Positions 24,187 to 43,686 of a DNA stretch of 64,000 nucleotides are shown here, piece after piece (positions within the stretch are counted from its first letter, which is position 1; each line of letters starts with the position of its first letter). This DNA comes from Stenotrophomonas sp. 57 (lineage in GTDB: Bacteria > Pseudomonadota > Gammaproteobacteria > Xanthomonadales > Xanthomonadaceae). Both the position numbers and the translations under genes were made by a program. Location: the NCBI RefSeq assembly GCF_030291075.1, contig NZ_CP127407.1, forward strand, positions 3,284,001-3,348,000, given 5' to 3'. The notes beneath the pieces are model-generated. The model was not told the DNA's origin. It searched no databases and saw only the letters and a list, made by a program, of their open reading frames with translations.

Positions 24187-24306
24187 GAACCATCTTTCGG
24201 TGGACGCCACGGTCCCCGCAGGATTTGGCACCTACGCGGACGCTTGCGCATCCGCGGGCTGCCCCGGCTTCAAAGGGCCTGTCCCTCTGCCGGTCTCGAT
24301 GGTGAG
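24187..24306 (-). promoter_or_regulatory. SAM-I (S-box) riboswitch of the metX-metB-hom operon
   Basis: On the minus strand the leader has all S-box landmarks in order: P1 strand CACCATC, then CCGGC-AGAGGGACAGGCCC with GAAGCCGG closing P2, GGGCAGCCC, the P3 stem CGCGGATGC-GCAA-GCGTCCGCG, the conserved GGTGCCAAATCCTGC, P4 GGGGAC/GTCC, and the returning P1 strand GATGGTT. SAM binding to this class normally shuts down expression of methionine genes. It ends about 80 bases before the metX ATG. A small hairpin (ATGCACCACACGTGCAT) follows P1 and may be part of the expression platform. Confidence 0.9.
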
Positions 24307-24453: not shown

Positions 24454-25338
24454 ATGCCACGCCTGCCCCTGACCTGCCTGCTGCTGCCCCTGCTGGCGAG
24501 TGCGACGGCCAGCGCCGGCGACTGGCGACAGGGCTGGGGACTGGTGCCTCCTCCTGCTTCTGCCGCCCGCGCAGGCGATTCCGAGGCTGCCGCACCGATG
24601 GCCCACCTGCGCCTGCAGCCGATCGGCGAGCAATGGCAGGCCCGCGTGGACAACACCCTGGCCGGCCCGTTGCAGGTCGAGCTGCGCGCGGCCCCCGGGC
24701 ACCCGGTCGACGGCCTGCCGGTGCAGACGCTGATCCAGGGTGACGGCAGCCTGGTGGTCGGCCACCTGCCCGCGCCGGTCAACGGCCGGATGCTGGACCT
24801 GCGCCTGCAGTCGGTGCCGGGCAACCCTGCCGCACAGGCCGAGGACGTGGCCTATCGCCTGCCCTTCGATGATGCGCGCCCGCGCGTAGACCAGGCCCCG
24901 CAAGGCCGGTTCAGCCACGATGACGAAGAGAACCGCGACGCGGTCGACTTCGCGCTGCCTGAAGGCACGTTGGTGATGGCCGCACGCGAGGGCACGGTGA
25001 TGCAGATCCAGGATGGCTTCCGTGGCAACGGCCAGGACCGCGAACGCGATGGCGCCCGTGCCAATTTCATCCGCGTGCTGCACAGCGACGGCAGCATGGC
25101 CCTGTACGGCCACCTGCAGGCGGGCGGCATGCGCGTGCGCCGTGGCCAGGCGGTGGGAGCCGGGCAACCCCTCGGCCTGTCCGGCAACAGTGGCTACAGC
25201 AGCGCCCCACACCTGCACTTCGTGGTACAGGTCAACCGCGGCATGGGCCTGCGCTCGGTGCCGGCGCGCATCTTCACCGAACAGGGCCAGCTGCAGTTCG
25301 CCCGCCAGGGCGAGGCCGACGGTGGCACCGGGCGCTGA
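24454..25338 (+). CDS. Secreted M23-family peptidase (LytM-like)
   Basis: A 294-residue periplasmic protein with a signal peptide (cleavage after A-T-A-S-A). The C-terminal half is an M23 (lysostaphin/LytM) domain. The first metal ligands lie in F-S-H-D-D-E-E-N-R-D-A-V-D-F, with the expected H and D. Y-G-H-L and the final H-L-H-F supply the remaining catalytic and metal residues. The set is therefore complete and a peptidoglycan endopeptidase activity is plausible. The N-terminal 130 residues form an immunoglobulin-like beta region without a recognised name. Confidence 0.85.
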   Translation: MPRLPLTCLLLPLLASATASAGDWRQGWGLVPPPASAARAGDSEAAAPMAHLRLQPIGEQWQARVDNTLAGPLQVELRAAPGHPVDGLPVQTLIQGDGSLVVGHLPAPVNGRMLDLRLQSVPGNPAAQAEDVAYRLPFDDARPRVDQAPQGRFSHDDEENRDAVDFALPEGTLVMAAREGTVMQIQDGFRGNGQDRERDGARANFIRVLHSDGSMALYGHLQAGGMRVRRGQAVGAGQPLGLSGNSGYSSAPHLHFVVQVNRGMGLRSVPARIFTEQGQLQFARQGEADGGTGR

Positions 25339-25352
25339 CCGGCCCCGGCCGG

Positions 25353-25358
25353 TATAAT
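25353..25358 (+). promoter_or_regulatory. -10 box of prfC
   Basis: A consensus TATAAT lies 46 bases upstream of the prfC ATG in a short intergenic gap. No clear -35 box precedes it. Confidence 0.5.
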
Positions 25359-25404
25359 CGGGCGCTTATCTCTTTGAAAAGCGCCCCGGGCGGGCGCCAC
25401 TGCC

Positions 25405-27009
25405 ATGTCCGAAGTCGCCAACGAAGCGTCGCGTCGCCGCACCTTCGCCATCATCTCCCACCCTGACGCCGGCAAGACCACGCTGACCGAAAAGCTGCTG
25501 CTGTTCGGAGGCGCGATCCAGATGGCCGGTTCGGTCAAGGGCCGCAAGGCCGCCCGCCATGCAACGTCCGACTGGATGGCGCTGGAAAAGGAACGCGGCA
25601 TCTCGGTCACCTCCTCGGTGATGCAGTTCCCCTACGAAGGCAAGATCGTCAACCTGCTCGACACCCCCGGCCATGCCGACTTCGGCGAGGACACCTACCG
25701 CGTGCTCACTGCGGTGGACTCGGCGCTGATGGTGATCGACGTGGCCAAGGGCGTGGAAGAGCGCACCATCAAGCTGATGGAAGTCTGCCGACTGCGCGAC
25801 ACCCCGATCATGACCTTCATCAACAAGCTCGACCGCGAGGGCAAGGACCCGATCGAGCTGCTGGATGAAGTGGAAACCGTGCTGGGCATCCAGTGCGCCC
25901 CGGTCACCTGGCCGATCGGCATGGGCCAGCGCCTGAAGGGCGTGGTGCATCTGCTCACCGGCGAAGTGCACCTGTATGAACCGGGCCGCAACTTCACCCG
26001 CCAGGACTCGACCATCTTCCCGTCCATCGATGCGCCCGGCCTGGCCGAGAAGATCGGTGCACAGATGCTGGCCGACCTGCGCGACGAACTGGAACTGGTG
26101 CAGGGCGCCAGCCACCCGTTCGACCTGGAGGCCTACCGCGCCGGTAAGCAGACCCCGGTGTTCTTCGGCTCGGGCGTGAACAACTTCGGCGTGCAGCCGC
26201 TGCTGGACTTCTTCGTCGAGCATGCGCCGTCGCCGCAGGCACGCTCCACCACCGGCCGCGAGATTGCCCCGGAAGAGAACAAGCTGACCGGCTTCGTGTT
26301 CAAGATCCAGGCCAACATGGATCCTCAGCACCGTGACCGCGTGGCGTTCATGCGCGTCTGCTCGGGCCGTTTCAGCGCCGGCATGAAGACCTTCCACGTG
26401 CGCACCGGCAAGGAAATGAAGCTGGCCAACGCGCTGACCTTCATGGCCAGCGACCGCGAGATCGCCGCCGAGGCGTGGCCAGGCGATGTGATCGGCATCC
26501 ACAACCACGGGACCATCTCCATCGGCGATACCTTCACCGAAGGCGAAGCGGTCACCTTCACCGGTATTCCGAACTTCGCCCCGGAGCTGTTCCGCCGCGC
26601 ACGCCTGCGCGATCCGCTCAAGCTCAAGCAGCTGCAGAAGGGCCTGGCCCAGCTGTCCGAAGAGGGCGCGACCCAGTTCTTCCGCCCGCTGACCAGCAAC
26701 GACCTGATCCTGGGTGCGGTCGGTGTGCTGCAGTTCGACGTGGCCGCTTACCGCCTGAAGGACGAGTACGGCGTGGAAGCCACCTTCGAGCCGGTCAGCG
26801 TGACCACGGCGCGTTGGGTCCACTGCAGCAACGAGAAGAAGCTGGAAGAGTTCCGCGAGAAGAACGCGCTGAACCTGGCACTGGATGCGGCCGGACACCT
26901 GGTCTATCTCGCACCGACCCGGGTCAACCTGCAGTTGGCGCAGGAACGCTCGCCGGACGTGCGCTTCTCGGCCACCCGCGAAGCGGCGCATACGGCTTCG
27001 GTGGGCTGA
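25405..27009 (+). CDS. prfC: Peptide chain release factor 3
   Basis: Translational GTPase that removes RF1/RF2 from the ribosome after termination. The 534-residue protein carries G1 H-P-D-A-G-K-T-T, switch [10 protein letters not shown] and G4 N-K-L-D-R-E, then the RF3-type domains II and III. Length and motifs agree with RF3 rather than EF-G. The ATG at 25405 gives the standard [13 protein letters not shown]-terminus. A short palindrome begins seven bases after the stop. Confidence 0.97.
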
Positions 27010-27015
27010 TGCCAC

Positions 27016-27054
27016 GGGGTCGGATCCCTTTCCGCAGTAAAGGGCTCTGACCCC
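27016..27054. repeat. GGGGTC...GACCCC palindrome (copy 1)
   Basis: An imperfect 39-base palindrome with arms GGGGTCGGATCCCTTT and AAAGGGCTCTGACCCC just after prfC. A second, more perfect copy is at 43646-43686. It could act as a transcript-end hairpin, but no T-run follows. Confidence 0.65.
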
Positions 27055-27185
27055 AGCACCCGTCGCCGGTTCATCCGTGCGACCCGGGGATTCATCCACG
27101 ATACGGTGACCGGCGTGCACGGGCCGCCCATCGCGGCGATGATAGGGGGGCGCGGGTCCCCCTCCCCGCGAACGATGCCTACGCC

Positions 27186-27824
27186 ATGTCCACGACTTCC
27201 GTTGCTTCGATCCGCGAAGAAATCGCCAGCGCCCTGACCCACGGCCTCGGTGCCGTGCTCGCCCTGGGCGCCGGTGCGGTACTGATCACGCTGGCCGCCA
27301 TCTACGGCGATGGCTGGCAGCTGGCCGGCGCGATCGTATTCGGCATTGCGCTGCTGCTGCTGTACACCGCCTCCACCCTGTACCACGCCATCCAGCACCC
27401 GGTCGCCAAGGGCCGGCTGAAGGTGTTCGACCACTGCGCGATCTACGTATTGATCGCCGGCACCTATACCCCGTTCACCCTGATCGGCCTGCGTGGCCCG
27501 TGGGGCTGGGGCCTGTTCGCCGCGATCTGGACCCTGGCCCTGGCCGGGGTGGTGTTCAAGCTGTTCTACACCGGCCGCTTCAAGGCGCTTTCCACCGGCA
27601 TCTACATCGCCATGGGCTGGTTGGTGATCGTGGCGATCAAGCCGATGCTGGCTTCGATCGACGGCTGGACGCTGGGCTGGCTGCTGGCCGGCGGCCTGTC
27701 GTACACGCTGGGCACCTACTTCTATCACCGCGAATCGATCCCCTATTCGCATGCGATCTGGCACCTGTTCGTGATCGGCGGCAGCGTCTGCCACTTCGTC
27801 GCGGTGACCATGCAGGTGCTGTAA
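27186..27824 (+). CDS. Hemolysin III / PAQR family membrane protein
   Basis: A 212-residue seven-helix inner-membrane protein of the TrhA/YqfA (hemolysin III) family, the bacterial relatives of progestin/adipoQ receptors. Conserved metal-site features are visible: E-E-I-A-S-A-L-T-H-G near the N-terminus, S-T-L-Y-H after the second helix, D-H-C-A-I-Y-V-L-I-A-G-T-Y-T-P-F, and the C-terminal H-A-I-W-H-L-F-V. In some bacteria such proteins influence membrane energetics and lipid composition; haemolysis is not implied. It appears to be a single-gene unit. Confidence 0.9.
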   Translation: MSTTSVASIREEIASALTHGLGAVLALGAGAVLITLAAIYGDGWQLAGAIVFGIALLLLYTASTLYHAIQHPVAKGRLKVFDHCAIYVLIAGTYTPFTLIGLRGPWGWGLFAAIWTLALAGVVFKLFYTGRFKALSTGIYIAMGWLVIVAIKPMLASIDGWTLGWLLAGGLSYTLGTYFYHRESIPYSHAIWHLFVIGGSVCHFVAVTMQVL

Positions 27825-27899
27825 CGGCGCGCGGGTTGTGCACACCGCGCACATGGACGCTTCGCGCCCTGTCCACGATGAAGGGGCAACCATGGCGGC

Positions 27900-29873
27900 G
27901 TGAATGCTGCCGCTTCCCCTGCCACAACGCGCGCTTCCCGTTGGCGCCTCCGCAGACCTGGCCCGCGCGGCCGGCACTGGCTGACGGTCCTGGTCTTCGT
28001 GCTGGCGGTGATCCTGGTGGTGATCGCGCTGTGGGACTGGAACTGGTTCAAGGGTCCGGTCGAGCGCGCGGTGCAGGCACGCACCGGTCGTGCACTGCAC
28101 ATCGGCCACCTGGATGTCGACCTCGGTCGCACCAGCACCATCCGCGCCGATGCGATCACCTTCGCCAACGCCGGTTGGGCGAAGCAGCCGAACATGGCCA
28201 CGGCCGACCGCGTCGAGATCGACGTGCGGGTGTGGCCCCTGCTGCGCGGCAGCGTGCAGCTGCCGGAAGTGCGCCTGACCCGACCGGACGTGCTGCTGGA
28301 AACCGCCCCGCGCAAGGGCGAGCCGGGCAACTGGGATTTCCTGGGTGACGGCAGCGGCGGAACAAGCCCGCAGCTGAAGCGGCTGCGCATCGACGACGGC
28401 CGGCTGCAGTTCCTCGACGCACTCGGCCGCACCGACATCCGCGTGGGCGTGCGCAGCGGCCAACCGAAACAGGCCGATGCCTCGCCGCCGCTGCTGGTGC
28501 AGGGCAAGGGCCACTGGCAAGGCAACCCGTTCACCCTGCAGGGCGGTACCGAATCACCGCTGGAACTGACCGACAGCGATCACCCGTTCCGCATCCACCT
28601 CGACGGCCGCGCCGGTGCCACCCACGCAGTAGCCCGCGGCACGCTGACCAATCCGTTCCAGCTGCGCGTGTTCGACCTGCAGTTCGCGCTCAGCGGCCAG
28701 GATCTGGCCGACCTCTACCCGCTGCTCGGCATCGCCATCCCGCCCTCACCGCCCTATGCGTTGGACGGACGCCTGAAGCGCGACCACAACGTCTGGCGTT
28801 ACGACAGCTTCACCGGCAAGGTTGGCGACAGCGACCTGGGTGGCAACCTGCAGTTCGAGGTGGGACGCGACCGTCCACGACTGACCGCGACGCTGGAGTC
28901 CAAGCGTCTGGACTTCGATGACCTGGCCGGCTTCGTCGGCGCGCCACCGAAGACCGGCAGCGGTGAAACCGCCAATGCCGAACAAAAGGCGCAGGCCGCG
29001 CGTGTCGCCGCCAGCAGCCGGGTATTGCCCGACACGCCCTACAACCTGGGCAAGCTGCGCGCGATGGACGCCGACGTGCGCTGGAAGGCCCACCGTATCA
29101 ACGCACCCTCGTTGCCGCTGGACGACATGGACGCGCACCTGCTGCTGGATGACGGCGTGCTGCGGCTGGACCCGCTGAACTTCGGCGTGGCCGGCGGCGA
29201 TATCCGCAGCACGATCCGCATGGATGCACGCCAGCCGCAGATCCGCACCGCGCTGAAGGCATCCGTGCGCGGCGTGCAGCTGGGCCAGCTGTTCCCCGAT
29301 GCGAAGCTGGCCGAGCAGGCCAAGGGCGGCATCGGCGGTGAAGTGGACCTGAGCGGACGTGGCAACTCGATCGCCGCGATGCTGGGCAGCAGCAGTGGCA
29401 AGGTCGGCCTGGCGATGGGTCGCGGCCACGTCGGCAACCTGGTGATGGAACTGGCCGGGCTGGACATCACCGAGTCGCTGAAATTCCTGGTGACCGGCGA
29501 CAAGCAGATTCCGCTGCGCTGTGCCTTCGCCGACTTCGGCGTGCGCGACGGCCTGATGACCAGCCAGGCACTGGCGGTGGATACCACCGACACGATCCTC
29601 ATCGGTGAAGGCACGGTCAGCCTGCACGACGAGACGCTGGATCTGCTGCTGAAGCCCCGCCCGAAGGACAAGAGCATCCTGGTGCTGCGCTCGCCGCTGC
29701 ACATCACGGGCACGTTCAAGGACCCCTCGTTCCGTCCGGACTTCAAGGCGCTGGGCATTCGAGGCGCCGTGGCATTGGCGCTGGGCAGCATTGCCCCGCC
29801 GGCGGCATTGCTGGCAACGATCGAGCTGGGGCCGGGGAAGGATGCCGACTGCGGTGGGCAGTATGCGAAGTAG
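27900..29873 (+). CDS. AsmA-family envelope protein
   Basis: A 657-residue protein with one N-terminal membrane anchor (W-L-T-V-L-V-F-V-L-A-V-I-L-V-V-I-A-L-W) followed by a long periplasmic beta-rich AsmA domain. Typical family motifs include a P-V-E-R-A-V-Q-A-R-T-G-R-A-L-H-I region just after the anchor and a C-terminal D-L-L-L-K-P-R-P-K-D segment with G-T-F-K-D-P-S-F-R-P-D. AsmA/TamB-like proteins are thought to carry phospholipids between membranes. The start is GTG 27900, the only convincing in-frame codon before the anchor; no strong ribosome site is visible. Confidence 0.85.
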   Translation: MNAAASPATTRASRWRLRRPGPRGRHWLTVLVFVLAVILVVIALWDWNWFKGPVERAVQARTGRALHIGHLDVDLGRTSTIRADAITFANAGWAKQPNMATADRVEIDVRVWPLLRGSVQLPEVRLTRPDVLLETAPRKGEPGNWDFLGDGSGGTSPQLKRLRIDDGRLQFLDALGRTDIRVGVRSGQPKQADASPPLLVQGKGHWQGNPFTLQGGTESPLELTDSDHPFRIHLDGRAGATHAVARGTLTNPFQLRVFDLQFALSGQDLADLYPLLGIAIPPSPPYALDGRLKRDHNVWRYDSFTGKVGDSDLGGNLQFEVGRDRPRLTATLESKRLDFDDLAGFVGAPPKTGSGETANAEQKAQAARVAASSRVLPDTPYNLGKLRAMDADVRWKAHRINAPSLPLDDMDAHLLLDDGVLRLDPLNFGVAGGDIRSTIRMDARQPQIRTALKASVRGVQLGQLFPDAKLAEQAKGGIGGEVDLSGRGNSIAAMLGSSSGKVGLAMGRGHVGNLVMELAGLDITESLKFLVTGDKQIPLRCAFADFGVRDGLMTSQALAVDTTDTILIGEGTVSLHDETLDLLLKPRPKDKSILVLRSPLHITGTFKDPSFRPDFKALGIRGAVALALGSIAPPAALLATIELGPGKDADCGGQYAK

Positions 29874-29913
29874 GGTTACAGCGTTGTTCGCGGCGCCTCT
29901 TTTTCCGCGCATA

Positions 29914-30092
29914 GAGCCGCAGCAAGGCGACAGGCAGGACACGCCGTAAATACGTCCCTGTATGTAGGCTCGGTCGGCGCATCCATGCGCCTCACGGTCC
30001 TGCCTGCCGCCTTGCTCCGGCTCCGGACAGTCTCCCGCGCGCGGAACGAGAGCGGAAATTCAAAGTCAAAAGAAAAAAGCACAGTCAAAAGC
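29914..30092 (+). repeat. Composite element 1, forward unit (hairpin plus A-rich tail)
   Basis: A long hairpin with arms GAGCCGCAGCAAGGCG.../...CGCCTTGCTCCGGCTC (29914-29940 with 29996-30023) surrounds a core ACGCCGTAAATACGTCCC with ATCCATGCGCC. After the stem comes CGGACAGTCTCCCGCG..., then the tail AAAGTCAAAAGAAAAAAGC. This order (stem, core containing ATCCATG, stem, xGACAG segment, AAAAGC tail) is the same as in the unit at 42694. No gene is present. Confidence 0.6.
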
Positions 30093-30169
30093 TGTTACCA
30101 ACCAAGGTTGGCAGCTACCAAGGGCGAGGCACCGCGCATGTACGCACCGCGCTCGCAGAAATGTGTCCA

Positions 30170-30354
30170 GAGGCGGAGGGTGCGGCTGGGCAGGACCGTT
30201 GGCGCCATGGGCCCGAGGCATGCCTCGGGCGGGTTGGGCAGGACGCCCAACCCTGGTCTTGCCGTGTGCGCAGGACAGCGCACACGAGCAAGGCGCCATC
30301 GAGCCCCCATGGATGGGTTTACGGCGTGTCCTGCCCAGCCGCACCCTTCGCCTC
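30170..30354 (-). repeat. Composite element 1, reverse unit (hairpin)
   Basis: Read on the minus strand: arm GAGGCGAAGGGTGCGGCTGG, GCAGGAC, core ACGCCGTAAACCCATCCATG with GGGGGCTCGATGGCGCC, three nested hairpins in the loop (GTGTGCGC/GCGCACAC, GGTTGGGC/GCCCAACC and GCCCGAGGC/GCCTCGGGC), then GGCGCCAACG and the closing arm CCTGCCCAGCCGCACCCTCC. The stem differs in sequence from the forward unit but is fully self-complementary. The two units point toward each other. Confidence 0.6.
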
Positions 30355-30399
30355 CCAACGTATCAGGAAGGCGCTGCTCTCAGCTCTGGCTCTGGCTTC

Positions 30400-30430
30400 A
30401 AAAAGCGGGCCGGCGGGCCGCAGGCCCGCC
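30400..30430 (-). terminator. Terminator of the CBS-domain gene
   Basis: On the minus strand GGCGGGCC, TGC loop, GGCCCGCC, followed shortly by CGCTTTTTG. It begins eleven bases after the stop codon of the CBS-domain gene and has the form of an intrinsic terminator. Confidence 0.7.
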
Positions 30431-30440
30431 AGCGATACCC

Positions 30441-30872
30441 TCACCCGGCGACGATGTACTGCTGCAGCTGATCCAGCTCGCGCCGCTGCGCATCGATCAC
30501 CGACTTCACCAGGTCACCGATCGAGATCACCCCCAGCACCTGCGCGCCCTCCACCACCGGCAGGTGGCGGATGCGGTAGTCGGTCACCAGCTGCAGGCAG
30601 TGCTCCACCTGCTCACCCGGCGACACCGTCACCACCTGCGCCGTCATGATCTCCGCCACCGCCGTATCGCGTGAGGAGCGATCACGCAGCACGATCTTGC
30701 GCGCGTAATCGCGCTCGGACAGGATGCCGACCAACTTCGGCCCGTCCATCACCAGCACCGCACCGATGCCCTTTTCCGCCATCAACCGGATCGCATCGAT
30801 CACCGCCGCATCCGGCGCGACCGCATGCACTTCAGGAGACTTGCCGTCCAACAGTTGCCGTACCGTGGTCAT
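30441..30872 (-). CDS. CBS-domain-pair protein
   Basis: A 143-residue soluble protein made of two CBS motifs forming one Bateman module, which generally binds adenine nucleotides. Motif 1 covers V-I-D-A-I-R-L-M-A-E-K-G-I-G-A-V-L-V; motif 2 covers I-R-H-L-P-V-V-E and L-G-V-I-S-I-G-D-L-V. The conserved G-I-L-S-E-R-D-Y-A-R-K segment links them. There is no catalytic domain, so it is probably a ligand-sensing or regulatory protein. Its first 14 codons overlap the 3' end of the glycosyltransferase gene in another frame. Confidence 0.88.
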   Translation of the reverse strand: MTTVRQLLDGKSPEVHAVAPDAAVIDAIRLMAEKGIGAVLVMDGPKLVGILSERDYARKIVLRDRSSRDTAVAEIMTAQVVTVSPGEQVEHCLQLVTDYRIRHLPVVEGAQVLGVISIGDLVKSVIDAQRRELDQLQQYIVAG

Positions 30873-31851
30873 CCGCCTGCCCTCCGAGGGTGGGTTGCAG
30901 CGCCGAGTCTGCCACGGACGATGCTAGCCACGCGTCAACCAGGTACAACGGCCGCTGCTTGGACTCTTCGTACAGCCGCCCCAGGTACTCGCCGATCAGG
31001 CCCAGCGCGATCAGCTGCACGCCGCCCAGGAACAGGATCACCGCCATCATCGTCGGCCAGCCTGCTACCCGGTCGCCGTAAAGCGCGGCCTTGACGATCA
31101 CCCACACGCCGAACACGAAGGCCACCGCCGCCGTTGCCAGCCCCAGGTAGGTCGCCGCCCGCAGCGGCACGGTGGAGAAGCCGGTAATGCCCTCCAGCGC
31201 GAAGTTCCACAGCCGCCACAAGCTGAACTTGCTGGTGCCGGCCACGCGCGCATGGCGGTGATAGGGCACCGCGATCCGCTTGAAACCCACCCAGCTGAAA
31301 AGCCCCTTCATGAAGCGGTGGCGCTCCCGCATCTCGCGGAGCGCACTCAGCGCGCGTGGCGACAGCAGGCGGAAATCCCCGGTGTCGGCCGGAATCGGCG
31401 TACGCGACAGGCGCCCCATCACCCGGTAGAACATCGCTGCCGTGGCACGCTTCACCCAGGCTTCGCCGTCGCGCGCCATGCGCGTGCCATAGACGTTGTC
31501 ATGGCCCTCGCGCCAGCGCGCGACGAACTGCGGCACCAGTTCGGGCGGATCCTGGCCGTCGGCGTCGAGGATCATCGCCGCACCCTCGCGCACCAGGTCC
31601 AGGCCAGCGGTCAGTGCCGCTTCCTTGCCGAAATTGCGCGACAGCTTCAGTGCGGAAACCCGCGCATCGGACTGGGCCAGGCGGGCGATCACCTCCCAGG
31701 TGCCGTCATGGCTGCCGTCGTCCACGTACAGGATGTGGCCGTCGATGTCGGGCAGCGCATCGAGCACCGCGCACAACCGCGGATGCAGCAACGGCAATGC
31801 CAGGGCCTCGTTGTAGGCGGCGATGACGAAAGTAAGCCGTTCGCGGGTCAT
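30832..31851 (-). CDS. Family 2 glycosyltransferase (ArnC/GtrB/dolichol-phosphate-mannose synthase type)
   Basis: A 339-residue membrane glycosyltransferase. The GT-A domain begins with F-V-I-A-A-Y-N-E and carries Y-V-D-D-G-S-x-D-G-T, then the metal site L-D-A-D-G-Q-D-P-P. Two C-terminal transmembrane helices follow, as in enzymes that load sugars onto undecaprenyl phosphate. The acceptor sugar cannot be read from sequence. The ATG at 31851 is preferred because the conserved domain starts five residues later. It is 46 bases downstream of mtgA on the same strand, and its 3' end overlaps the CBS gene by 41 bases. Confidence 0.88.
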   Translation of the reverse strand: MTRERLTFVIAAYNEALALPLLHPRLCAVLDALPDIDGHILYVDDGSHDGTWEVIARLAQSDARVSALKLSRNFGKEAALTAGLDLVREGAAMILDADGQDPPELVPQFVARWREGHDNVYGTRMARDGEAWVKRATAAMFYRVMGRLSRTPIPADTGDFRLLSPRALSALREMRERHRFMKGLFSWVGFKRIAVPYHRHARVAGTSKFSLWRLWNFALEGITGFSTVPLRAATYLGLATAAVAFVFGVWVIVKAALYGDRVAGWPTMMAVILFLGGVQLIALGLIGEYLGRLYEESKQRPLYLVDAWLASSVADSALQPTLGGQADDHGTATVGRQVS

Positions 31852-31897
31852 GCCCGGATTGTACGTTGCCGCCGCCCGCAGATCAGGCAGCGCGCGC

Positions 31898-32647
31898 TCA
31901 CTCGTCCGACAGGTACGCGGCGCCACCCAGCTGCCACGCCTGGCGCTGGATCCAGGCGGCACGCCGCTGCACGTAAGGCCCGGGCGCGGCCGCGTTGTAG
32001 CGCCGGGGTGCCGGCAGCACCGCCGCCAACCGCGCGCTCTCGGCCGGGCTCAGCCGCGCCGCGTCCTTGCCCCAGAATTTCCGGGCCGCCGCCTGCGCGC
32101 CGTACACCCCGTCGCCGAACTCGGCGATGTTGGCGTACATCTCCAGGATACGCTCCTTCGGCCACAACGCTTCGATCAGCACCGTGTACCAGACTTCCAG
32201 GCCCTTGCGGATCCAGCTGCGGCCCTGCCACAGGAACAGGTTCTTGGCCACCTGCTGGCTGATCGTGCTGGCACCGCGCAGGCGCCCGCCCTTGGCATTG
32301 TGGTCGCGGGCCTTCTCAATGGCCTGCAGGTCGAAACCGTTGTGGTCGGGGAAGCGCTGGTCTTCGGCCGCCACCAGCGAGATCGGCAGGCTCGGCGCCA
32401 TCTGGTCCAGGTCGCGCCACTGGTAATGCAGGCGATAGGACCAATCGGCCTCGCCCAGCGCCTCGCCATAGCGCCACAGCATCACCGTGGACACCGGCGG
32501 GTCGATGAACCGCAGCACCAGGACCTGCAGGCAGCTGAAAGCAGCCAGCAGCACCGGCAGCCACAGCAGCCGTTTCCAGCGCCAGCGCCTGCGGCGTGGG
32601 CCTTCTGCTACGGCTTCCACCTTGTGCTGCTCTCCCCCTGCCCCCAT
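31898..32647 (-). CDS. mtgA: Monofunctional peptidoglycan glycosyltransferase MtgA
   Basis: A 249-residue inner-membrane GT51 enzyme that polymerises lipid II into glycan strands. One transmembrane anchor near residue 30 is followed by the active-site motif [14 protein letters not shown], with the catalytic glutamate in [23 protein letters not shown] and [15 protein letters not shown] are also intact. A GTG eight codons further in is a possible alternative start. It is divergent from hslO with about 77 bases between. Confidence 0.95.
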
Positions 32648-32724
32648 TACTGGTGCATCCTTCTTCTATCTGGTTGTCGGCGCATTATCCGGCAACCGCC
32701 CCCGTTTACGCGCGATGTGAGCCG

Positions 32725-33618
32725 ATGACCGCCAACCCCGATTCCCTGATCCGCTTCCTGCTGCCCGACGCTGGCGTCCGTGGCGTCCACGTGCGCCTGC
32801 AGGCCACCTGGCAGGAAATCCTGTCCCACGCCGCGTACCCGGACACCGCTGCCGAACTGCTCGGCGAGGCCTGTGTTGCCTCGGCGCTGTTCACTGGCCA
32901 TACCAAGATCGATGGGCGCCTGTCGATCCAGCTGCGCAGCAGCACCGCCCTGCGCACCCTGTTCGCCGAATGCACCGCCGCCGGCACCCTGCGCGGCATC
33001 GCCCAGCTCAGCGAGGGCGCCGATGCGCCGCGCGACCTGTCCAGCCTGGGTGATGACGCCCTGCTCGCGATCACCATCGAGAACCCGGGCCTGGACCCGC
33101 GCGAGCCGCAGCGCTACCAGAGCCTGGTCGCGCTGACCGCGCCGGAGCTGGACGAAGCCTTCGAGGACTACTTCCGCCAGTCCGAACAGCTGCCGACCCG
33201 CCTGCTGCTGGCCGCCGACCGCAACGGTGCCGCGGGCCTGCTGCTGCAGAAGCTGCCGGGCGACGAGGGCGACGAGGACGGCTGGGCACGTGCCAGCGCC
33301 CTGTTCGAGACCCTGGCCAAGGCCGAGCTGCTGGCCACCCCGGCCGAGCAGCTGCTGCACCGCCTGTTCCACGAAGAGAAGCCGGAACTGATGGGCGACA
33401 AGCCGCTGTCCTTCGCCTGCTCCTGTTCCCGCGAGCGGGTCGCATCGATGCTGCAGTCGCTGGGCGAGGACGAGGCCCGTGCCGCGGCGCTGGACACCGG
33501 CGCCGTCGAGGTCCGTTGCGAATTCTGCGGGCGGGAGTATCACTTTCCTTTGACGGAGTTCGGCATACTGTTCCACGGTGCCGAGGGGACTGTACCGGCG
33601 CCTGAACGGCTTCAGTAA
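32725..33618 (+). CDS. hslO: Redox-regulated chaperone Hsp33
   Basis: Cytosolic holdase chaperone activated by oxidation of a zinc centre. The 297-residue protein has the Hsp33 fold and, at the C-terminus, the four zinc cysteines as C-S-C (near residue 233) and C-E-F-C (near residue 266), in the expected C-x-C ... C-x-x-C pattern. The ATG at 32725 gives the usual Hsp33 beginning with S-L-I-R-F-L-L-P. It stands alone downstream of the divergent mtgA gene. Confidence 0.95.
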   Translation: MTANPDSLIRFLLPDAGVRGVHVRLQATWQEILSHAAYPDTAAELLGEACVASALFTGHTKIDGRLSIQLRSSTALRTLFAECTAAGTLRGIAQLSEGADAPRDLSSLGDDALLAITIENPGLDPREPQRYQSLVALTAPELDEAFEDYFRQSEQLPTRLLLAADRNGAAGLLLQKLPGDEGDEDGWARASALFETLAKAELLATPAEQLLHRLFHEEKPELMGDKPLSFACSCSRERVASMLQSLGEDEARAAALDTGAVEVRCEFCGREYHFPLTEFGILFHGAEGTVPAPERLQ

Positions 33619-38753: not shown

Positions 38754-39667
38754 TTACGTCCCCTACTCCCGCTGCGTTCCATGATCTGCGCCTGGACGCC
38801 GCCCATGGCGCGCGCCTGGCCGCGACCGTCAGCGACCATGGCCGACGTGGCCGGGTGCTGTTCGCGCACGGCTTCGGCCAGACCCGCCACGCATGGAATG
38901 CCACTGCGCGCGCACTGAACGCCGCTGGGCTGCAGACCCTGGCGTACGACGCCCGCGGCCACGGCGATTCCGACTGGAATGCCGCCGAACTGCCCTATCA
39001 CGGCGAACAGTTCGCTGATGACCTGATCGTGCTGGCCGGGGAACAGCCGCGTCCGCCGGTGCTGGTCGCAGCCTCGATGGGCGGCCTGTTCGGCCTGCTG
39101 GCCGAATCGCGCTGGCCGGGCCTGTTCTCGGCAATGGTGCTGGTGGACATCACCCCGCGCTGGGATACCGCCGGCGTCGAGCGCATCCTCGCCTTCATGA
39201 CCGCCCATCCCGATGGCTTTGCCTCGCTGGCCCAGGCCGCCGATGTCATCTCCGCGTACATGCCGCACCGCCCGCGCAAGTCCGAGCAGTCGCTGCGTGC
39301 ACTGCTGCACGAGGATGGCCACGGCCGCTGGCGCTGGCACTGGGATCCGCGCCTGGTGGCCGAACTGGCCCGCGACAGCGAGCAGCACCAGGACGCGCTG
39401 GCCGAGGCCGCACGGCAGGTGAAGTGCCCGCTGCTGCTGGTCAGTGGTGGCCGCAGCGATCTGGTCACCCCGCAGACCGTCGCCGAATTCCTGGCATTGG
39501 CGCCGCACGCGCGCCACGTACAGTTGCCGCAGGCCACGCACATGGTCGCAGGCGATGACAACGACGCCTTTACCGCTACTGTGTTGGACTATCTGGACGT
39601 GTTGCCCGCAGCGGATGCTGCAGCTTCGTCCGCCACAAACGAGCACGTCACCGGAGCACGCTCATGA
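38750..39667 (+). CDS. Alpha/beta hydrolase, first gene of the FadE operon
   Basis: A 305-residue cytosolic serine hydrolase without signal peptide. The oxyanion region F-A-H-G-F-G-Q-T is followed by Y-D-A-R-G-H-G-D-S-D. The nucleophile elbow is A-A-S-M-G-G-L (Ala replaces the first Gly of G-x-S-x-G), the acid lies in G-G-R-S-D-L-V-T, and the histidine in Q-A-T-H-M-V-A-G-D. Its stop overlaps the fadE start by four bases. An esterase or thioesterase acting on fatty acyl substrates is plausible from context. The ATG at 38750 sits inside a palindromic operator. Confidence 0.85.
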   Translation: MVTSPTPAAFHDLRLDAAHGARLAATVSDHGRRGRVLFAHGFGQTRHAWNATARALNAAGLQTLAYDARGHGDSDWNAAELPYHGEQFADDLIVLAGEQPRPPVLVAASMGGLFGLLAESRWPGLFSAMVLVDITPRWDTAGVERILAFMTAHPDGFASLAQAADVISAYMPHRPRKSEQSLRALLHEDGHGRWRWHWDPRLVAELARDSEQHQDALAEAARQVKCPLLLVSGGRSDLVTPQTVAEFLALAPHARHVQLPQATHMVAGDDNDAFTATVLDYLDVLPAADAAASSATNEHVTGARS

Positions 39668-42141
39668 GCATCGTTCTTCCCTTCCTCGCCCTGCTGCTGG
39701 CAGGCGCGTTCGTCGCCTACCACCGCATGCGCCTGCTGACCTGGACGCTGATCAGCCTGGCCCTGCTGGCCGTCTGCTGGTTCGTGCCCTACGTCAACCA
39801 GACCGCCACGATCGTTGCGGCCGCCGTGCTGGCGGTCATCGCCGTGCCGCTGCTGCTGCCGTTCATCCGCAAGCCGCTGCTGACCGGTCCGATGATGAAG
39901 GTGTTCCGCAAGGTGCTGCCGCCGCTGTCGCAGACCGAGCGCATCGCGCTGGAAACCGGCTCGGTCGGTTTCGAAGGCGAGCTGTTCACCGGTGACCCGG
40001 ACTGGAACATCCTGCTGAATTACCCCAAGCCGCAGCTGACCGCTGAAGAGCAGGCCTTCCTCGATGGCCCGGTCGAAGAGCTGTGCGCGATGGTCAACGA
40101 CTGGGAAATCACCCACGTCCATGCCGACCTGCCGCCGGAGCTGTGGGCCTTCATCAAGAAGAACAAGTTCTTCGGCATGATCATCCCGAAGGAATACGGC
40201 GGCCTCGGCTTCTCCGCGCTGGCCCACCACAAGGTCATCCAGAAGCTGGCCTCGGTGTCCTCGGTGGTCAGCTCCACCGTCGGCGTGCCGAACTCGCTGG
40301 GCCCGGGTGAACTGCTGGTGCACTACGGCACCCAGGAACAGAAGGACCAGTACCTGCCGCGCCTGGCCGATGGCCGCGAAGTGCCGTGCTTCGGCCTGAC
40401 CGGTCCGTTCGCCGGTTCCGACGCCACCTCCATTCCGGACTACGGCATCGTCTGCAAGGGCGAGTGGCACGGCGAGCAGGTGCTCGGCGTCAAGCTGACC
40501 TTCGACAAGCGCTACATCACCCTGGCCCCGGTCGCTTCGCTGATCGGCCTGGCCTTCCGCATGTACGATCCGGACGGCCTGATCGGCGATACCCGCGACA
40601 TCGGCATCACCCTGGGCCTGCTGCCGCGTGACACTGCCGGCGTTGAGATCGGCCGTCGCCACTTCCCGCTGAACTCGACGTTCCAGAACGGCCCGATCCG
40701 CGGCAAGGACGTGTTCATTCCGCTGACCCAGCTGATCGGTGGCGCAGCCATGGCCGGCAAGGGCTGGAACATGCTCAACGAGTGCCTGGCCGTGGGCCGT
40801 TCGATCACCCTGCCCTCCACCGCCAGCGGCGGTGCCAAGGCCGGTGCTGCCGTGACCGGCGCCTACGCACGCATCCGCAAGCAGTTCGGCCTGTCGGTCG
40901 GCCGCTTCGAAGGCGTGGAAGAAGCGCTGGCCCGCATCGGCGGCAAGGCCTACAAGATCAGCGCGCTGTCGCAGGCCACCGCTGCAGCGGTCGACCGTGG
41001 CGACGTGCCGTCGGTGCCCTCGGCGATCGCCAAGTACCACTGCACCAGCATGAGCCGCGAAGTGATCTCGGACATGATGGACGTGATCGGCGGCAAGGGC
41101 ATCATCCTGGGGCCGCGCAACTTCGCTGGCCGCAGCTGGCAGGCCGCGCCGATCGCGATCACCGTGGAAGGCGCCAACATCATGACCCGCAGCCTGCTGA
41201 TCTTCGGCCAGGGTGCGATCCTCTGCCACCCGTGGGTGCTGAAGGAAATGAAGGCCGCGCAGGATCCGGACACCCGTGCCGGCCTGCAGGACTTCGACCG
41301 CAGCCTGTTCGGCCACATCCGCTATGGCATCTCCAATGCGGTGCGTTCGTTCTGGTTCGGCCTGACCGGTGCGCGCTTCGGTGCCGCCCCGGGCGACGCC
41401 TACACCCGCCGCTACTTCCGCAAGCTGGACCGCTACTCGGCCAACCTGGCGCTGATGGCCGACATCTCGATGATGACCCTCGGCGGCAAGCTGAAGTTCA
41501 AGGAATCGCTGTCCGGGCGCCTGGGCGACGTGCTGAGCCATGTCTACATGACCAGCGCCATGCTCAAGCGCTACCACGACGAAGGCGCACCGCAGGCCGA
41601 CCAGCCGCTGCTGGCCTGGGCGTTCCATGACAGCGTGCACAAGATCGAAGAGTCGCTGTCGGCGGCGCTGCGCAACTTCCCGATCCGTCCGATCGGCTGG
41701 CTGATGTGGGCGCTGATCTTCCCGCTGGGCCGTCGTGCCGAAGCCCCGGGCGACCGCCTGAGCCGCCGCGTCGCCGCCCTGCTGATGGCGCCGAACGAAG
41801 CCCGCGACCGCCTGGCCAGTGGCGTGTTCCTGACCCCGTGCGAGAACAACCCGGGTGGCCGCATCAACAGCTACCTGAGCAAGGCGATCATGGCCGAGCC
41901 GGTGGAGCGCAAGTTCCTGAAGGCGCTGAAGAGCAAGGGCATCGAAGCGCTGGACTTCAAGGCGCAGCTGGACGAGGCCGTGGCTGAAGGCGTGATCACC
42001 CAGGACGAGCGCAGCCTGCTGGAAGAGCTGCGCACGCTGACCCTGGACACCATCACCGTGGACGACTTCGACACCCACGAACTGCGCGCGGCCAGCTACT
42101 ACGACCGCCAGCACAAGGACCCGCATTCGCAGGCGGCCTGA
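39664..42141 (+). CDS. fadE: Acyl-CoA dehydrogenase FadE
   Basis: FAD-dependent first enzyme of fatty-acid beta-oxidation. At 825 residues it is the large membrane-associated FadE type (about 814 in Escherichia coli), not the common 380-residue soluble form. Two to three N-terminal hydrophobic helices precede the dehydrogenase core, which includes I-I-P-K-E-Y-G-G-L-G-F, C-F-G-L-T-G-P-F-A-G-S-D-A-T and the G-G-K-G-I-I-L-G-P-R-N-F segment. A FadE-specific C-terminal domain of about 250 residues follows. It is coupled to the hydrolase gene by an ATGA overlap. Confidence 0.95.
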   Translation: MSIVLPFLALLLAGAFVAYHRMRLLTWTLISLALLAVCWFVPYVNQTATIVAAAVLAVIAVPLLLPFIRKPLLTGPMMKVFRKVLPPLSQTERIALETGSVGFEGELFTGDPDWNILLNYPKPQLTAEEQAFLDGPVEELCAMVNDWEITHVHADLPPELWAFIKKNKFFGMIIPKEYGGLGFSALAHHKVIQKLASVSSVVSSTVGVPNSLGPGELLVHYGTQEQKDQYLPRLADGREVPCFGLTGPFAGSDATSIPDYGIVCKGEWHGEQVLGVKLTFDKRYITLAPVASLIGLAFRMYDPDGLIGDTRDIGITLGLLPRDTAGVEIGRRHFPLNSTFQNGPIRGKDVFIPLTQLIGGAAMAGKGWNMLNECLAVGRSITLPSTASGGAKAGAAVTGAYARIRKQFGLSVGRFEGVEEALARIGGKAYKISALSQATAAAVDRGDVPSVPSAIAKYHCTSMSREVISDMMDVIGGKGIILGPRNFAGRSWQAAPIAITVEGANIMTRSLLIFGQGAILCHPWVLKEMKAAQDPDTRAGLQDFDRSLFGHIRYGISNAVRSFWFGLTGARFGAAPGDAYTRRYFRKLDRYSANLALMADISMMTLGGKLKFKESLSGRLGDVLSHVYMTSAMLKRYHDEGAPQADQPLLAWAFHDSVHKIEESLSAALRNFPIRPIGWLMWALIFPLGRRAEAPGDRLSRRVAALLMAPNEARDRLASGVFLTPCENNPGGRINSYLSKAIMAEPVERKFLKALKSKGIEALDFKAQLDEAVAEGVITQDERSLLEELRTLTLDTITVDDFDTHELRAASYYDRQHKDPHSQAA

Positions 42142-42216: not shown

Positions 42217-42684
42217 ATGTCCACGCCCCTGCTTTCGCTTTATCACCGCCTGCAGCGCTGGCCCGCTGGCCCCTGGCTGTTCTCGCGCGCGGTGTGTTTC
42301 AAGGCGCCCTACTTCGCCAGCATCGCGCCACGCATCACCCGCCTGGAACACGGCCGCTGCGAAGGCACGCTGGCCGACCGCCGCAAGGTGCGCAACCACA
42401 TCGGCACGGTGCACGCGATCGCGATGTGCAACCTGGCCGAGCTGACCGCCGGGCTGATGGTGGATGCATCGCTGCCGAAGGGCATGCGCTGGATTCCGAA
42501 GGGGATGCAGGTGCAGTACCTGGCGAAGGCACGTGGCACGCTGCAGGCGGTGGCGTTGCCGGCACAACCGATTGTCGTCGCGGCCGAGGGCTATGCGCTG
42601 CCGGTGACGGTGAGCGTGCGCGACCGCGCGGAGACGGAAGTGTTCAGCGCGGTCATCGACATGTGGATGTCGCCGGCGAAGTAA
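42217..42684 (+). CDS. Hotdog-fold DUF4442 protein
   Basis: A 155-residue protein with a thioesterase-like hotdog fold of the DUF4442 type. The long hotdog helix region N-H-I-G-T-V-H-A-I-A-M-C-N-L-A-E-L-T-A-G is recognisable and is followed by K-G-M-Q-V-Q-Y-L-A-K-A-R-G and the strand-rich C-terminal half ending E-V-F-S-A-V-I-D-M-W. No catalytic aspartate or glutamate can be assigned with confidence, though the glutamate in A-E-L-T-A-G is well placed. It lies 75 bases after fadE in the same direction; acyl-CoA clean-up is a reasonable guess. Confidence 0.8.
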   Translation: MSTPLLSLYHRLQRWPAGPWLFSRAVCFKAPYFASIAPRITRLEHGRCEGTLADRRKVRNHIGTVHAIAMCNLAELTAGLMVDASLPKGMRWIPKGMQVQYLAKARGTLQAVALPAQPIVVAAEGYALPVTVSVRDRAETEVFSAVIDMWMSPAK

Positions 42685-42693
42685 GTTCCCGCG

Positions 42694-43256
42694 AACGGCG
42701 CAGCCCCTCGTGGGTGGACGGCGAAAGCGGTTTATCGGTTGGGCCGGAGGGGTGGGGCCATGCGGGGACGCCGCAAGTACCCCTCCGGGGCCCGGCCCAG
42801 CCGCTGGCGGCTGTGCGTTCGGTCGCTTGCGAAGCAATGCTTCGCAAGCAAAGCGCCCTCACCCCTGTAGGCTTAGCCGCGCCATCCATGGCGCGGATAC
42901 CCCGCCCGGCCCCACCCCTCCGACCTCTGACAGATCTCTGTGGCGTCCACCCACGCAAGAGAAAAAAGAAGAGCAAAAGCAAAAGCAAAAGCGGCCCACC
43001 GGCCGCTTTTTCATGCGCGCAGAACCCACGAGCGCAGCGATCCGCTGTTGCTGTTGCTCTTCTTTTTCTTCTCCGTGGGCTGGCCGCACGCGGAACCTGT
43101 CAGGGGTGTGGCGGGTGGGCCGTGCAGGGGCGTTGGCGCCATGGATGGCGCCATCGAGCTTAAAGGGACGTACTTGCAGCGTCCCCTGCACGGCCCATCC
43201 GCCACACCCAACCCATGACCCGCATTCCGCGACCACCCACGAGGGGCTGCGCCGTT
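42694..43256. repeat. Composite element 2 with 24-bp perfect terminal inverted repeats
   Basis: The ends 42694-42717 (AACGGCGCAGCCCCTCGTGG, then GTGG) and 43233-43256 are exact reverse complements. Inside lie two inverted units. The left hairpin (42745-42922) has arms CGGAGGGGTGGGGCC/GGCCCCACCCCTCCG; the right one (43105-43208) has arms GGTGTGGCGGGTGGGCC/GGCCCATCCGCCACACC. Each has a core with CATCCATGGCGC on one strand, then a CTGACAG segment, then a purine tail (AGAAGAGCAAAAGCAAAAGC on the left). The tails meet at the centre around a terminator. No ORF here has believable codon use or homology. It lies next to the hotdog gene stop (42684) and the convergent DUF1304 gene. Confidence 0.75.
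42991..43011 (+). terminator. Terminator at the centre of composite element 2
   Basis: GCGGCC, CACC loop, GGCCGC followed by TTTTT. It would stop transcripts coming from the fadE operon after they have crossed the left half of the element. Confidence 0.75.
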
Positions 43257-43265
43257 GGCTGGAAA

Positions 43266-43616
43266 CTACGCCACCGCGCGAAGAACCAGCGCCAGGATCG
43301 CCGGCAGCGCCTGGATCATGAAAATGCGGCGGCTTACGCTGTACGCGCCGTAACACCCGGCCACCACCACGCACGCCAGCGAGAACGTCACCAGCACCGG
43401 CTGGTCGATCACCAGTCCCACCACGATGCCCGCCGCCAGGAAGCCGTTGTACAGCCCTTGGTTGGCCGCCAGCACGCGCGTGATCTCGGCCTTCTCCGCT
43501 GTGTTGCGGAACGTCTTCAGGCCCAGCGGGCGGGTCCACAGGAACATCTCCAGCACCAGGAAATAGACGTGCAGCAGTGCGACCAGCAAGGTCAGGGCGA
43601 GTGCGATCCAGTACAT
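43266..43616 (-). CDS. DUF1304 membrane protein
   Basis: A 116-residue inner-membrane protein of the DUF1304 family with four predicted helices. Family features include A-L-L-H-V-Y-F-L-V-L-E-M-F-L-W at the start, A-A-N-Q-G-L-Y-N-G-F-L-A-A-G in the middle and a last helix with Q-A-L-P-A-I-L-A-L. The function of the family is unknown. Its 3' end lies ten bases from the right boundary of the composite repeat element, and a GGGGTC palindrome lies just upstream. Confidence 0.85.
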   Translation of the reverse strand: MYWIALALTLLVALLHVYFLVLEMFLWTRPLGLKTFRNTAEKAEITRVLAANQGLYNGFLAAGIVVGLVIDQPVLVTFSLACVVVAGCYGAYSVSRRIFMIQALPAILALVLRAVA

Positions 43617-43645: not shown

Positions 43646-43686
43646 GGGGTCAGATCCCTTTCCCCGCGGGAAAGGGATCTGACCCC
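43646..43686. repeat. GGGGTC...GACCCC palindrome (copy 2)
   Basis: A 41-base near-perfect palindrome: GGGGTCAGATCCCTTTCC, five bases, GGAAAGGGATCTGACCCC. It is the same family as 27016-27054. It lies between the stop of the carrier gene and the start of DUF1304 on the same strand and may function as a terminator of the upstream gene. Confidence 0.75.

Follow-up and report, generated by a model that had tools for sequence, protein, structure and literature searches.

The 563-base element at 42694..43256 of the window (the whole stretch of 64,000 nucleotides analysed) consists of two copies of a folded cassette. The family to which they belong is widespread and has a known relative among the enterobacteria, the YPAL/RU-2 repeat of Yersinia pestis. 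These cassettes are exchanged and lost at fixed sites and are probably also inserted, and selection at the RNA level on one of their strands, here named the GGA strand, is well supported. With a confidence evenly divided between acceptance and doubt, we read them as mobile, gene-converting structured-RNA cassettes whose loops probably bind CsrA/RsmA. The initial annotation of this DNA had proposed that the element is a structured RNA pair or a mobile element of the non-autonomous type, and not coding DNA in decay; to this we add the kinship with YPAL, the variability of the stems and the CsrA-type loops.

The element lies between two convergent genes (42217-42684 on the + strand and 43266-43616 on the - strand), and the codon-usage gene caller made no call between 42684 and 43266, which confirms its description as gene-free. 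Comparison of the ends with each other also bore out the perfect terminal inverted repeats, the outer 24 bases on the left (42694..42717) and on the right (43233..43256) being exact reverse complements. As had been claimed, two inverted units are arranged around a terminator: they can be aligned with each other from the terminal block through stem, core and CTGACAG to the purine tail. Besides terminal block, CTGACAG and tail, each has an outer stem (P1), a pair of inner hairpins (P2 and P3) and a closing arm, and the two are separated in the centre by a terminator-like hairpin called by the terminator scan at 42987..43010 on the - strand. Shuffled sequences yield 0.7 (sd 1.0) terminator-like sites and the region itself 4, and a consensus scan found no sigma-70-type promoter within 42600-43400. 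The folding energy of the 563 nucleotides is -378.8 kcal/mol, compared with -249.8 (sd 7.2) for 100 shuffles (z = -18.0).

Unit 1, delimited by sequence and fold, is a hairpin at 42745..42922 (outer-stem arms 42745-42767 and 42900-42922), with - as its putative RNA strand. Its P2 loop holds an additional 82-bp module (42781..42862) that relatives lack at this place, a module of similar kind being present in unit 2 of genome G374, and its P3 hairpin (42877..42896, - strand) has the loop ATGGAT, of the form ANGGAY. According to the unit alignment, unit 1 is closed by CTGACAG at 42927..42933 (+), the purine tail with AAAAGC repeats extends over 42959..42993 (+), and the CTGACAG of unit 2 is found on the - strand at 43097..43103 (CTGTCAG on +). 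Unit 2, delimited by the covariance-model match and the fold, occupies 43105..43208 (arms 43105-43130 and 43183-43208), with + as its putative RNA strand; its P3 hairpin (43135..43152, +) carries the hexaloop ATGGAT at 43141-43146, and its P2 region (43158..43183, +), recognised from sequence and relatives, contains AGGGAC at 43164-43169. Two features of these units count against CsrA binding: the P2 loop of unit 1 is broken by the module, and the base before the P2 loop of unit 2 is A where relatives have C. The initial annotation had stated that each stem pairs perfectly, and had suggested from this that the folded structure is maintained. The suggestion stands, given the strong covariation and strand-polar wobble described below; the statement on pairing does not quite hold for unit 2, in which one pair is G-U on the + strand and A.C on the other, and this unit folds better on the + strand (-86.9, against -80.3 on the other).

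Several further features of the window were recorded. A palindrome of about 41 bp, GGGGTCAGATCC..GGATCTGACCCC, adjoins the element at 43646-43686, and similar palindromes recur elsewhere between paired units, as in loci L037, L038, L047 and L048. A second facing pair of units lies at 29909-30030 and 30220-30351; in L172, an orthologue of window positions 24809-32876 (about 91-92%), some 82 bases are missing near 30210-30293, as at unit 1 of the 563-base element. The sole window match above Rfam gathering scores was a SAM riboswitch (RF00162) at 24187-24305 on the - strand. Matches to microRNA families stayed below their own cut-offs and were taken as chance matches to long stems.

Further copies, which the initial annotation had proposed to search for, were found in the organism's own genome and in related genomes, so that a unique element is ruled out. 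BLAST returned 92 matches in the own genome, grouped into 40 clusters, and covariance model R1, built from 44 own-genome units (alignment A1), detected at least 131 units at E <= 0.001, a lower bound because 150 of the 6,002 candidates were scored. The alignment had comprised 56 own-genome units, of which 12 truncated or extended ones were left out of A1, with six more without the end motif. Among the 131 units, 38 pairs less than 600 bp apart were counted, all 38 facing the same way, together with 55 singles; unit 1 of the window is missed by R1 because of its 82-bp module, and the window pair is thus counted as a single. Loci of Stenotrophomonas maltophilia strains E301 and D5.1 match own-genome loci at 93% and 90%, and the genome is close to that species.

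When 185 genomes sampled from the class Gammaproteobacteria were searched with R1, at least 32 had matches. R2, a class-wide model built from alignment A2 (72 units with arms mutually less than 60% identical, five of 77 units, namely L095, two of L100, L159 and L173, being left out), matched at least 77 of 369 gammaproteobacterial genomes, including at least 64 of 314 high-quality ones. Copy numbers and positives in these class searches are lower bounds because only 19 (R1) or 11 (R2) candidates per genome were scored. All 20 positives among 299 genomes sampled from the phylum, whose split between class and non-class genomes is not given, belonged to that class. A pattern scan of named genomes yielded at least 120 stretches; the 80 with names displayed were all gammaproteobacterial by our own reading of their titles, and the matches listed include Xanthomonas, Marinobacter, Rheinheimera, Shewanella, Microbulbifer and Yersinia.

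None of 206 units lies within a called gene, and many are found within about 110 bp of a stop codon. An earlier, cruder caller had placed 48 of 128, 36 of 49 and 5 of 15 units in ORFs, and was superseded after having mis-called the known + strand gene at 39664-42141. The searches made revealed no homology to a degraded gene; with no called gene in the gap and no unit inside called genes, a decayed gene is ruled out, in agreement with the initial annotation.

Each unit folds as a three-way junction made of the long outer stem P1 and a core with hairpins P2 and P3, and the conserved part is limited to this core of about 52 nt. The outer stem, of 20-31 bp, often changes in sequence from copy to copy while its self-pairing is kept. 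For copies at different loci (3,000 sampled pairs), arm identity and pairing across copies are both 34%; within copies, pairing reaches 94-98% in the three genome groups examined, where arms are 38-67% identical to each other. Arms are not private to each copy everywhere: by eye they look shared between copies in Xanthomonas and Rheinheimera, and own-genome arms are partly shared. In A2, standard pairs fill 95.1% of the structure cells, against 56.6 (sd 0.7) in shuffles. Stem covariation is strong, with a score of 0.946 against 0.202 in shuffles and at most 0.16 in slid registers, over which the structure is favoured by having been derived from the A2 sequences themselves.

The strand on which this structure acts was addressed through the polarity of wobble pairs, a test by which RNA repeats can be told apart from DNA palindromes and the strand identified. 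In 137 units, the 3,713 outer-stem pairs, written as they read on the R1-modelled strand, comprise 3,486 Watson-Crick, 24 G.T, 127 A.C and 76 other pairs. An A.C pair on the R1-modelled strand is G-U on the opposite strand, giving a polarity of 127:24, from which one RNA strand appears to be selected. The arm finder handled all non-Watson-Crick pairs alike, and R1 models the opposite strand, so that its bias would favour the other wobble direction. Among 87 non-redundant units the counts are 85 A.C versus 18 G.T (44 versus 9 loci); the polarity is 22:3 for 46 units of the own genome, and 7:2, which is not significant, for 21 units from Stenotrophomonas orthologues. Counted by gene context, the G.T:A.C ratios are 4:12, 2:11, 7:35, 6:31 and, with no context, 5:38. 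Since the direction is the same throughout, transcription of neighbouring genes does not explain the polarity. Selection on the GGA strand at the RNA level is therefore well supported, with the reservation that a mutation asymmetry linked to the element could mimic such a polarity; the GGA strand would then be the functional RNA. Together with the covariation, this supports the proposal of a structured RNA pair.

Mobility was examined at orthologous sites. At the locus of the window element, the ends, CTGACAG and the tails are all retained in nine further genomes of the genus (G398 being broken at a contig end), and the 24-bp ends are common to these nine orthologous elements where covered. 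Between the ends, unit 1 or unit 2 is independently replaced by a different whole hairpin, optional modules occur in the P2 or P3 loop, and in G392 the element is inverted. Further relatives are without the element in this gap, where their sequence is too different for a target duplication to be read. Elsewhere, among the matches listed, a unit is missing in 3 of 6 relatives at L046 and in 3 of 4 at L044, and at L031 relatives have lost single units or both, or have them fused into a hybrid. Two of the relatives without the unit at L046 join exactly; ACCT is present twice in the filled site and once in these two unfilled ones, which fits either an insertion with a 4-bp duplication or a deletion between repeats. 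Whole-hairpin swaps and losses at fixed sites indicate cassettes that are exchanged, lost and probably inserted, and with at least 131 units, presence/absence and inversion at orthologous sites they support the proposed non-autonomous mobile element. Units may nest inside terminators between genes. In L281 (G405), the orthologue of L031 without both units, the outer tails come together in CAAAAGCGGGC..GCCCGCTTTTG, a hairpin resembling a bidirectional terminator.

On the strand favoured by the wobble pairs, both inner hairpins present a C[ANGGAY]G hexaloop which matches the CsrA/RsmA consensus, the SELEX consensus of CsrA being RUACARGGAUGU and the bound loop ANGGAN (excerpts of PMC7652899). 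The P3 loop reads A(N)GGA in 65 of the 72 A2 units without the scan having required this; for L091-L210 the scan pattern itself prescribed the P2 loop, as a regular expression did for some own-genome loops. In 14 correctly anchored, model-found loci, P2 reads ANGGA in all 14, and P3 shows GGA in 12 and the fuller A(N)GGA in 10; the four loci without A(N)GGA in P3 count against CsrA. These loci come from 19 tried with the anchoring script, of which one had no anchor and four of the other 18 were mis-anchored, the raw tally over 18 (P2 14, P3 10, P3 GGA 12) counting those as misses. The two GGA motifs are spaced by 19-22 nt in 71 of 72 units, that is, wherever both motifs were found. One CsrA dimer is described as bridging sites 10-63 nt apart, best above 18, and SELEX as favouring stems of at most 4 pairs (same excerpts); the P3 stems are longer than this, which is a point against CsrA. 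In five extended units, the loops of the extra hairpins are of GGA type in three units and of UCC type in the other two, and with this mixed result the optional modules were dropped as support for CsrA. Three stacked hairpins form a P3-loop module that is seen repeatedly, in L035, L041, L040 and G374 (L267), with AGGA loops on the GGA strand, two in L041 and one in L035.

A CsrA gene was found in 72 of the 77 genomes with the element. For high-quality genomes, the gene is present in 63 of 64 with the element versus 217 of 250 without it (Fisher p 0.003), the single exception being G196, an assembly of about 270 contigs; this co-occurrence may come partly from small genomes that have neither. 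In the own genome, no match to the CsrB model (RF00018) exceeded the cut-off (best 26.1 of 71 bits), in line with a BLAST search which reported no CsrB-type RNA in Xanthomonas (excerpts of PMC7694677). RF00018 was also absent from the Rfam matches of the window, the scope within which other sponge families were checked. No bias of orientation towards neighbouring genes appeared among pattern-found and own-genome loci: both neighbours run in the direction of the GGA strand for 33 of 142 pattern-found units and against it for 36, the remainder lying between convergent (36) or divergent (13) genes or at edges (24), and 49 own-genome units comprised 14 co-directional, 11 antisense, 15 convergent and 9 divergent. 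This lack of bias speaks against the CsrA reading, as do the negative promoter scan around the element and the modelling of Rfam's Ysr224 on the opposite strand.

Putative CsrA binding is the best mechanistic interpretation of these loops, and we judge it about as probable as its contrary. One CsrA/RsmA dimer would bridge both loops of the GGA strand, and the more than one hundred units at gene ends would form a dispersed CsrA/RsmA sink, or marks on the transcripts carrying them. Because the loops match the CsrA binding site, the element may act as a scattered sponge. We propose more tentatively that, in xanthomonads and many other gammaproteobacteria, such a sponge scattered over the genome replaces or supplements a single CsrB-type sponge, that free CsrA is tuned through the number of copies and the exchange of cassettes, and that the outer stem may have any sequence provided that it is paired. 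If CsrA does bind, the family becomes a candidate titrator of RsmA in xanthomonads and ties mobile repeats to global regulation.

Other explanations account for part of these observations. The units could be a YPAL-like miniature insertion whose RNA hairpin, situated at transcript ends, retards mRNA decay or assists termination, the loops serving a role unrelated to CsrA, for instance for a mobilising enzyme. The position of units near stop codons and outside called genes and the terminator between the window units agree with this, as does the proposal that YPAL affects the stability of upstream transcripts and inserts at or beside dyad symmetry (excerpts of PMC2229807). Invariant GGA loops, a free N at the free position of CsrA and a constant spacing are not predicted by it, and termination alone needs no two conserved loops; we hold this explanation to be possible, with considerable doubt.

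A palindromic repeat of MITE or REP type acting at the DNA level, with no RNA role, would owe its pairing to replication-slippage repair between arms or to the spread of perfect copies. One-sided changes are few in the own-genome alignment, inverted pairs all have one orientation, whole hairpins are replaced and inverted, and orientation to genes is unbiased, all as such a repeat would have it. The wobble polarity, maintained in every gene context, is unexpected of a strand-symmetric palindrome (unless by the mutation asymmetry mentioned above) and weakens this reading, which we consider unlikely. Selection on an RNA strand and presence/absence at orthologous sites would equally suit a SINE-like selfish RNA, copied via an RNA intermediate and selected for structure only during copying; divergence of arms between copies with pairing kept suggests selection in place, and we hold this origin to be very improbable. 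We retain structured-RNA cassettes, with putative CsrA binding, as the preferred reading.

Compared with known systems, the window element shares terminal inverted repeats with MITEs (here 24 bp and perfect), and the family resembles the REP/SMAG (GTAG) sequences of Stenotrophomonas in being high-copy, intergenic, palindromic and often inverted. REPs, however, measure 20-40 bp (excerpts of PMC3733652), whereas the unit is about 118 nt long (118 model positions), with a branched core and two inner hairpins. The sponge RNAs CsrB, CsrC and RsmX/Y/Z also expose GGA motifs in hairpin loops, but are dedicated sRNA genes, few in number and each with many motifs (GGA occurs 22 times in E. coli CsrB; excerpts of PMC7652899), in contrast with two motifs per unit and over a hundred dispersed units. 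RsmU of Xanthomonas campestris, an RsmA-binding xanthomonad RNA from an mRNA 3' end, is set apart by its description as one locus, not dispersed and more than 90% conserved in Xanthomonas only (excerpts of PMC7694677).

The closest relative is YPAL/RU-2, whose published sequence, compared by eye, has the same core (PMC2759123 Table 1b, seen in part). YPAL is likewise intergenic, hairpin-forming and strain-variable (excerpts of PMC2229807), and shares the location just downstream of stop codons. For the target duplications of 3-26 bp ascribed to YPAL, the ACCT at L046 would fit, as it would fit a deletion between repeats. In Yersinia the repeat measures about 168 bp, and its ends and arms are shared, while the family described here has differing arms and ends and paired units. 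The Rfam model RF02770 (sRNA family Ysr224) scored 126.5 bits on a Yersinia similis locus (L161) and 82.9 on a Sodalis locus (L155), and 32.5 on unit 2 of the window for a cut-off of 70, so that by this model the element is a relative of YPAL and not a member. From L161 and L155, Ysr224 was seen to be a fragment of the YPAL repeat, modelled on the strand opposite to the RNA strand proposed here, and its Rfam matches may therefore be repeats instead of one sRNA gene. In the portions of the open-licence literature available, where YPAL is known from reviews and not from the primary paper, there was no account of the family outside Yersinia and Erwinia and no paper combining YPAL and CsrA. The repeat known from these two genera becomes a single branch of a family that extends over the class and in which the core is conserved and the stems vary and covary.
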